This document shows, piece by piece, positions 12,415 through 14,679 of a stretch of DNA of 64,000 nt. Position 1 is the stretch's first letter, and each line of letters starts with the position of its first letter. The stretch is from assembly GCF_027579695.1 (NCBI RefSeq), contig NC_083587.1:39261732-39325731 (forward strand). Reading direction: 5' to 3'. The translations under genes and the position numbers were made by a program. The notes below the pieces were generated by a model, which worked only from the letters and a program-made list of their open reading frames with translations, searched no databases and had not been told where the DNA came from. The stretch is from Neoarius graeffei (taxonomy: Eukaryota > Chordata > Actinopteri > Siluriformes > Ariidae).

Positions 12415-12480
<66 letters not shown>
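12415..12480. repeat. AT/AC microsatellite
   Basis: An (AT)n run followed by (AC)n sits between the right target copy of the R2-like LINE and the left end of the fold-back Tc1. Confidence 0.9.
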
Positions 12481-12481
<1 letters not shown>

Positions 12482-12773
12482 GCTCAGCGTAAATGAGTAC
12501 ACCCCCTTTGAAAAGTAACATTTTAAACAATCTCAATGAACACAATTTCCAAAATGTTGACAAGACAAAGTTTATATAACATCTGTTTAACTTATAACGT
12601 GAAAGTAAGGTTAATAATATCAACTTAGATTACACATTTTTTCAGTTTTACTCAAATTAGGGTGGTGCAAAAATGAGTACACCCCACAACAAAAACTACT
12701 ACCGGTACATCTAGTACTTTGTATGGCCTCCATGATTTCTAAGGACAGCACCAAGTCTTCTAGGCATGGAATG

Positions 12774-13455
12774 TGTCACGAAACAGACAGGAGAGGAGAT
12801 CAAATGCGCTCAAACCACAGTTTATTAATAATAGGGAGTTGGGAGAATGTGTGTGAAGTCCAGAGGCAGGAGAACTGAGAGGCAGGGAGGGCTGGTGGTG
12901 ACATCTGAGGTCTCCCATCCAAGTACTGGCCAGGCCTGACCCTGTTCAGCTTCTAAGATCTGACAGGATCTGGCATAGTCAGAGAGCTGTGGCTGTAGGC
13001 TGATAGAACATGGGTTTCAGGCAGTCTCCAAGCAAGCAGTCCCTCAGGAGGCAGGAGTTAGAGAGCAAACTGGAACACAGAGTCACAAATCAGGTAGCAA
13101 GATAGGGGACAGAAGGCAGATTAGGTTACCGGGGCTGGAGAGCAGACAGAATCAAATGGAACAGAAGGCAGGTCAGGGTACCGGGGCTGGAGAGCAGACA
13201 GAGTCAAACGGAACAGAACAATTTCAGGAGTCAGAGTAGTAGGAACACAGAGCAGGTTATCAGGCTGAGAGTTGCAGACGATCTGACACAGAAGCTTGAG
13301 AGGACTGCAGCTTAAATACACACAGGGGGAAAGCAGGTGATCGGCAACAGCCAATGACAGTCACTGAAAGATAATAAGAGGAAGTGTGGGCGTGGCCGGT
13401 AATGCTGAGTGGAGATGTTACCTGAAGAGAGAAGCCCACAGGTAGGACCATGACA
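12774..13455 (-). mobile_element. Solo LTR (fossil) with a 5S-rRNA-like segment
   Basis: A 682-base unit with TG...CA ends, flanked by ggaatg on both sides (12768-12773 and 13456-13461); the Tc1 arm sequence is restored when it is removed. On the minus strand it has a TATA-like motif near 13313 and an AATAAA near 12823, as expected for an LTR read right to left. Between them lies a 5S-like stretch (12908-13000) in the same sense. A roughly 50-base direct duplication occupies about 13116-13220. No internal retroelement coding region is present. The family is probably Gypsy-like from its general form, but this is not certain. Confidence 0.75.
12908..13000 (-). repeat. 5S rRNA-derived segment inside the solo LTR
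   Basis: Read on the minus strand this follows vertebrate 5S rRNA from its 5' end to the box C region. It keeps tacttggatgggagacc (box C) and a close match to the box A region (agctgaacagggtc). The last part of 5S is absent and the match is clearly diverged, so it is not a functional 5S gene. Confidence 0.8.
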
Positions 13456-14679
13456 GGAATGAACAAGTTGGTGACATTTTGCAACATCAATCTTTTTCCA
13501 TTCTTCAACAATGACCTCTTTTAGTGACTGGATGGAGAGTGATGCTCAACTTGTCTCTTCAGAATTCCCCATAGGTGTTCGATTGGGTTCAGATCAGGAG
13601 ACATACTTGGCCACTGAATCACTTTCACCCCGTTCTTCTTCAGAAATCCAACAGTGGCCTTAGATGTGTGTTTAGTCATGTTGGAAAAGTGCACGACGAC
13701 CAAGGGCATGGAGTGATGGTAGCATCTTCTCTTTCAGTATAGAGCAACACATCTGTGAATTCATGATGCCATCAATGAAATGCAGCTCCCCGACACCAGC
13801 AGCACTCATGCAGCCCCACATAAGGACACTGCCACCACCATGTTTCACTGTAGGCACCATGCATTTTTCTTAGTATTCCTCACCTTTGCGATGCCATACA
13901 GTTTTGAAGCCATCAGTTCCAAAAACATTTATCTTGGTCTCATCACTCCAGAGTATAGAGTCCCAGTAGTCTTCATCTTTGTCAGCATGAGCCCTGGCAA
14001 ACTCTAGGCGGGCTTTTTTGTGCCTGGGCTTTAGGAGAGGCTTCTTTCGTGGACGGCATTCATGCATGCCATTCCTCTGCAGTGTACGCTGTATTGTGTC
14101 ACGGGAAATAGTCACCCCAGTTTGGCTTTCTACTTCTTTAGATAACTGCAGTGAACTTGCATGCCGATTTTCTTCAACCCTTCTCATCAGAAGACGCTCC
14201 TGTCGAGGTGTTAACTTCCGTGGACAACCTGGACGTCTCTGTGAGATGGTTGCAGTTCCATCTTTCTTAAATTTTTGTACCACTTTTGCTACAGTATTCT
14301 GACTGATAAGTAAAGCTTTGCTGATTTTCTTGTAGCCTTCACCTTTGTGGTGTAAAGAAATTATTTTCTTTGGGGAATTCTGAAGAGACAAGTTGAGCAT
14401 CACTCTCCATCCAGCATCCAGTCACTAAAAGGGGTCATTGTTGAAGAATGGAAAAAGATTGATGTTGCAAAATGTCACCAACTTGTTCATTCCATGCCTA
14501 GAAGACTTGGTGCTGTCATTAAAAATCATGGAGACCATACAAAGTACTAGATGTAGTAGTTTTTGTTGTGGGGTGTACTCATTTTTGCCCCACCCTAATT
14601 TGAGTAAAACTGAAAAAATGTGCAATCTAAGTTTATATTATTAACCTTACTTTTCCGTTATAAGTTAAACAGATGTTAT

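Follow-up and report, generated by a model that had tools for sequence, protein, structure and literature searches.

The LTRs of a coding, Tf1/sushi-type retrotransposon family in the catfish Neoarius graeffei carry a 5S rRNA-derived segment

In the literature that we found, promoters of small RNA genes within long terminal repeats (LTRs) have been reported for miniature, non-coding elements, namely Cassandra, Ajax and Helenus. Structurally, the plant TRIM Cassandra holds a 5S rRNA-derived promoter within its LTR, measures less than ~1 kb, has no coding remains, uses a methionine-tRNA primer site and has had its Pol II promoter replaced, as described in PMC10853983. Among animals, PMC10886601 describes the nemertean TRIM Ajax (421–434 bp, non-coding, tRNA-Leu primer site, 5-bp target site duplications), whose LTR includes a partial 5S with box A, intermediate element and box C and a diverged upstream part, as well as Helenus (311–1263 bp, non-coding, 4-bp duplications in animals), a TRIM with a tRNA-derived promoter that also occurs in ostariophysan fish, so that Pol III-type promoters in fish LTRs are not new as such. 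According to the same paper, the autonomous partners of Ajax- and Helenus-type elements must use Pol II, and a long LTR stretch shared with them is unlikely (PMC10886601). Full-size Tf1/sushi chromoviruses, in turn, combine a chromodomain integrase with the Ty3/gypsy domain order and with a self-primer complementary to the primer-binding site (PBS), self-priming being a common feature of the group (PMC10085805).

The locus described here lies in a 64,000-nucleotide stretch of the N. graeffei genome (NC_083587.1, positions 39,261,732 to 39,325,731 of the forward strand; hereafter the window), and its relatives were sought across the 2.34 Gb assembly (38 contigs). On the minus strand at 12774..13455 sits a 682-base unit with TG...CA ends, which these ends and its genome relatives (91–95% identity in the 40 scored, window copy included, among 1823 first-look candidates) mark as a solo LTR belonging to a Ty3/gypsy family of the Tf1/sushi type. 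A TATA-like box, TATTTAA (13318-13312), and a poly(A) signal, AATAAA (12826-12821), both on the minus strand, bear out the LTR identity and the orientation given in the initial annotation of this DNA. Flanking the unit are clean 6-bp target duplications (GGAATG at 12768..12773 and 13456..13461, no strand assigned), and the flanks joined through a single GGAATG match the other arm of the Tc1-like element without a break across the junction (220/239), just as the restored Tc1 arm of that annotation would have it. The Tc1-like element that received the LTR adjoins an (AT)n run of 27.5 pure copies (12417-12471). Inside the LTR, a tandem repeat of 52 bases in 2.1 copies occupies 13109-13218, its two copies being 47/52 alike, and this stretch of R varies among subfamily LTRs.

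By Rfam and by alignment to a host gene, positions 12908..13000 of the minus strand correspond to 5S positions 1–92. Read from 13000 to 12908, in the LTR's own sense, the segment is identical to the host 5S gene used as reference (L029, found with RF00001) at 72/92 positions, with 32/46 in positions 1–46 and 40/46 in positions 47–92; the earlier reading of a 5S-like stretch in LTR sense between the TATA-like and AATAAA motifs is thereby upheld. In the window copy alone the likeness is weak, an Rfam scan of the whole window giving no hit at the curated cut-off and a search confined to 1 kb scoring 21.5 bits (E 0.11; cut-off 38); it is the related copies that, compared by sequence, confirm the 5S identity. 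RF00001 matched 19/20 scanned loci (16 of 20 subfamily loci, the other 4 left out, plus 4 picked others) at E<1, with 10/20 reaching the cut-off and a top score of 47.9 bits, and the best family copies agree with the host 5S at 44/46 of positions 47–92. LTR copies of this kind can mislead 5S gene annotation.

Functionally, the part of 5S that matters for transcription is its internal promoter, the limits of which we take to be 50–64 for box A, 67–72 for the intermediate element and 80–97 for box C. With these limits, copy alignment places box A at 12937..12951 and the intermediate element at 12929..12934, while the kept region of box C (5S 80–92) occupies 12909..12921, all on the minus strand. 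The stretch 80–92 is identical to the host 5S in the window copy and in 81/100 copies, whereas positions 93–97, the final ~5 of box C, are not recognisable in the window LTR, and box A has at least two mismatches to the host 5S in 56/100 copies. The initial annotation, which had both boxes kept, was thus right for box C up to about 5S position 92, where the box breaks off. In several copies 10-base deletions recur near two CAGATC direct repeats (window 12961-12975), probably through slippage.

The 5S part is a fixed component of the family's LTRs. Of the two ranges of spacing searched with exact anchors flanking it, 125–155 bases occurs at 128 places in the genome (window copy included) and 20–50 bases, the spacing expected without the 5S part, at none; backward controls gave 0. 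When LTRs were picked by the junction of LTR end and PBS only, the 5S part was present in 20/20 and 19/20 cases in two sets, the single exception (L127) being a place where only the last 54 LTR bases show, and of 20 guessed places for 3' LTRs, six held an LTR, in each case with the 5S part (the other 14/20 gave no LTR match). It was also present in 28/28 LTRs of the first set (the window copy, the two LTRs of each of seven paired elements, 14 in all, and 13 others), although these had been retrieved with the whole LTR as query and are not an independent test of its presence. One promoter variant of the 5S part occurs at 576 genome places within 2 mismatches, with 30/30 of those fetched lying in this LTR, whose copies scatter TFIIIA-like sites over the genome in this way. 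Target copies of 5 or 6 bases were exact in 7/7 paired elements and in 8/14 singly fetched LTRs; the remaining six comprised two with one mismatch in 5 and four that were unscorable, with element interior on one side. The proposal that the 5S part moved with the LTR rather than alone is supported by the anchor counts and by the PBS-picked LTRs, and duplications of 5–6 bp are a repeated feature of the copies in this genome.

With respect to coding capacity, the seven paired copies are each 4.4–7.6 kb long overall, four of them 5.9–6.0 kb. One copy (L010) scored above Pfam cut-offs for Retrotrans_gag, RVT_1, RNase H, H2C2, rve, SH3_Tf2-1 and Chromo (PF00385), with the domains spread over three stop-bounded pieces, a protease match below cut-off and a CCHC motif seen by eye in gag. 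None of the seven paired copies holds a single unbroken gag-pol frame (the longest stop-to-stop stretch has 829 residues), so that an active coding source copy is something we infer. Directly inside the 5' LTR lies GAACGATCTGAC, and the junction of LTR end and PBS recurs at 345 places within 2 mismatches. The predicted self-primer, GTCAGATCGT (13278..13287, minus strand), coincides with the inferred RNA start, 31 bases past the start of TATTTAA, and is complementary to ACGATCTGAC in the PBS of full copies; the sequence adjoining the LTR is compatible with a self-primer. With the RNA starting at the predicted self-primer and ending by the poly(A) signal, the 5S part would fall in R, downstream of both TATA box and self-primer and ~287 bases into the predicted RNA. 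Judged by the chromodomain at the integrase end of one copy and by the self-primer complementarity, the family is a Tf1/sushi-type chromovirus of the Ty3/gypsy group. A genome-wide first look for SH3_Tf2-1 gave 25150 candidates, of which 150 were scored, and several of these had long open frames. In two other sushi families of this genome, the 2.1 kb that follow the SH3 domain showed no 5S part.

Compared with the described systems, the parallel to Cassandra that had been drawn for this LTR holds for the 5S module and fails for the type of element. By its sequence, the family has the hallmark of Cassandra and TRIMp3, a Pol III-type promoter derived from a small RNA within the LTR; it lacks their shortness and absence of coding sequence, its 4.4–7.6 kb copies having pol domains, and it also differs from Cassandra in its predicted self-primer and its retained TATA box. 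Like Ajax, it has a partial 5S with the three promoter regions in an animal LTR, a diverged upstream 5S part and short target duplications (5 bp in Ajax, 5–6 here), and like Helenus it has a Pol III-type promoter in an animal LTR. It is nonetheless a member of neither Cassandra nor Ajax, both of them TRIMs that have no coding sequence and use a tRNA primer site. Unlike the Tf1/sushi group, with which it shares the chromodomain integrase, the Ty3/gypsy order and the self-primer, it has a 5S part in R. Our literature search, in which repeat libraries and most subscription papers were outside the scope, brought up no 5S-bearing LTR element from a vertebrate among the matches listed, and a search of viral contigs for the 5S/LTR junction gave 0 matches.

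Evolutionarily, the two halves of the segment differ in how much they retain of 5S. Majority bases from 100/102 copies (2 duplicates out, 30 fetched by the 5S-variant pattern) differ from the host 5S at 13/46 positions in the 5' half and at 2/46 in the promoter half (Fisher p=0.0036, a value that overstates independence, the copies being related by shared ancestry). Copy by copy, identity to the host 5S is 89.7% in the promoter half versus 72.7% in the 5' half (69 of 78 copies, with 8 lacking the search core and 1 duplicate left out, a choice biased towards copies that retain box C).

The segment also diverges fast after insertion. Between the two LTRs of one element, 85/1062 positions differ in the 5S part versus 171/6585 elsewhere, in the same direction in 12/12 scored pairs (12 of 13, one being without an anchor), and with CpG columns and the variable AA/CT site (5S 49/50) removed the counts are 27/512 versus 52/3724 (seven pairs, p=2e-7); overall, post-insertion divergence of the segment is three to four times that of the remaining LTR. 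CpG decay as the whole cause is rejected by the excess that persists after CpG removal. Non-CpG variants that are shared are enriched in the 5S part (26/611 versus 21/4140 elsewhere, Fisher p 4e-12), and private ones are raised too (15/611 versus 42/4140, Fisher p 0.005), which rejects gene conversion among LTRs as the sole cause and leaves it a possible partial role. Along the LTR, the 12-pair profile goes up at the 5S start, stays high until ~60 bases past box C and then goes down; a second rise near the LTR end weakens the fit to a Pol III unit.

A fast-mutating segment that nevertheless keeps its promoter positions may reflect selection in source copies for a TFIIIA/Pol III-type module, and selection in source lineages appears to be the best explanation for fast mutation combined with kept promoter positions. 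We posit, with a probability of roughly 0.55, that source copies retain the 5S part as a TFIIIA/TFIIIC module acting at the DNA level (a type 1 Pol III promoter), with Pol II making the genomic RNA. Mechanistically, Pol II would start at the TATA/self-primer site to give the genomic RNA, the 5S module may open LTR chromatin, and short Pol III transcripts of ~150–165 bases would probably run to the TTTT before AATAAA in copies having one, with the Pol III start working alongside the Pol II start and not replacing it. Such a transcript, beginning at the 5S start without the 5' self-primer, would be an unlikely template for transposition. A TTTT follows the 5S part within the LTR in 23/28 and 12/18 copies, mostly just before AATAAA, and would stop a Pol III transcript after 151–166 bases in five of seven paired elements; none follows it in the 5' LTRs of two of the seven or in the window copy. 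As evidence for Pol III this terminator was discarded, TTTT runs per LTR not exceeding those in shuffles (four copies tested).

A more specific proposal, which we regard as tentative and on balance unlikely, is a two-polymerase LTR in a coding vertebrate retrotransposon, in which Pol II would make the self-priming RNA, Pol III would be active in the germline at the captured 5S promoter, and the divergence over the 5S part plus ~60 bases would be the footprint of its transcription-associated mutation. At tRNA genes, such mutation is reported to hit the immediate flanks while gene bodies are conserved (PMC8113476); the raised divergence resembles this and may serve as a lead, yet here the segment itself is affected.

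The main rival to selection in source lineages is inheritance from a 5S-headed SINE, whereby a 5S copy or such a SINE would have entered an ancestral LTR and spread as a passive passenger without a role, its promoter half already kept in the source. OS-SINE1 is a 5S-headed SINE, and the candidate source would presumably be of the SINE3/OS-SINE1 type. Elements of this type have a 5S-derived head with an internal promoter (for SINE3, PMC10886601), which could supply a conserved promoter together with a diverged 5' half, and they differ from the present family in having no LTR and in their LINE-driven mobility; moreover, SINE3 insertion is the origin proposed there for Cassandra and Ajax. That the segment's 3' end stops directly past the promoter, and that single copies decay quickly, as LTR-pair divergence indicates, would suit a passenger as well. 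Its promoter half, however, has remained close to the host 5S in subfamilies that differ in the middle of R, despite high mutation, and no SINE tail was recognised beside the 5S part by inspection. LTR copies free of the segment, which a SINE3 insertion would lead one to expect, were absent at the 20–50 spacing against 128 places at 125–155. We hold the passenger to be possible and a real competitor, if the less probable reading. That a 5S sequence or a SINE inserted separately into this one LTR, or that the likeness is due to chance, could appeal to the window copy's score below the Rfam cut-off and is barely conceivable given the same placement of the 5S part in the copies inspected, the 0 short-spaced (20–50) versus 128 long-spaced (125–155) places and the up to 44/46 matches of other copies in the promoter half; a single-copy insertion or a chance match is ruled out, over the spacings searched, by the Rfam matches in copies and the anchor counts.

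Two further readings assign the 5S part a role other than that of a DNA-level module beside a Pol II promoter. If Pol III itself produced the RNA that is reverse-transcribed, as in Cassandra, the LTR would be expected to contain a 5S promoter in its own sense, as it does; but the elements are mostly ~5.9 kb with 10–30 TTTT runs each, an RNA from the 5S start, ~287 bases past the self-primer, would lack that self-primer, and TATA and AATAAA are present, all of which makes this use highly improbable. Only marginally better are the prospects of an RNA mimic, in which the transcribed 5S part would fold like 5S rRNA and recruit 5S-binding proteins for export or packaging: its predicted place in R and the scores of up to 47.9 bits that some copies reach with the structure model of Rfam speak for it, whereas helix I has lost its 3' strand and conservation falls on the DNA promoter half. 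Folded as a single strand, the window segment (one copy) likewise does not take the closed 5S shape, and a DNA-level role fits this better than a mimic does.

From a broader perspective, the family shows in one LTR both features that the reasoning in PMC10886601 sets apart, and, having full-size copies with coding sequence as well as a 5S promoter in the LTR, it could represent an intermediate or partner type of the miniature elements. It also provides a naturally occurring case in which Pol II and Pol III promoters can be tested within a single LTR.

A repeated array at C21:38.91-39.29 Mb contains the host 5S genes themselves, some in one orientation and some in the other. At 5S 49/50, a change from AA to CT is discordant between the two LTRs in 5/13 pairs (L009-L015, L099/L100, L111/L112, L117-L120 and L123-L126), with one more pair AA/AT, which is far above expectation for LTRs identical at insertion. 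The CT completes a palindrome, CTGCT-A-AGCAG, and the change may have had a hairpin-templated origin.
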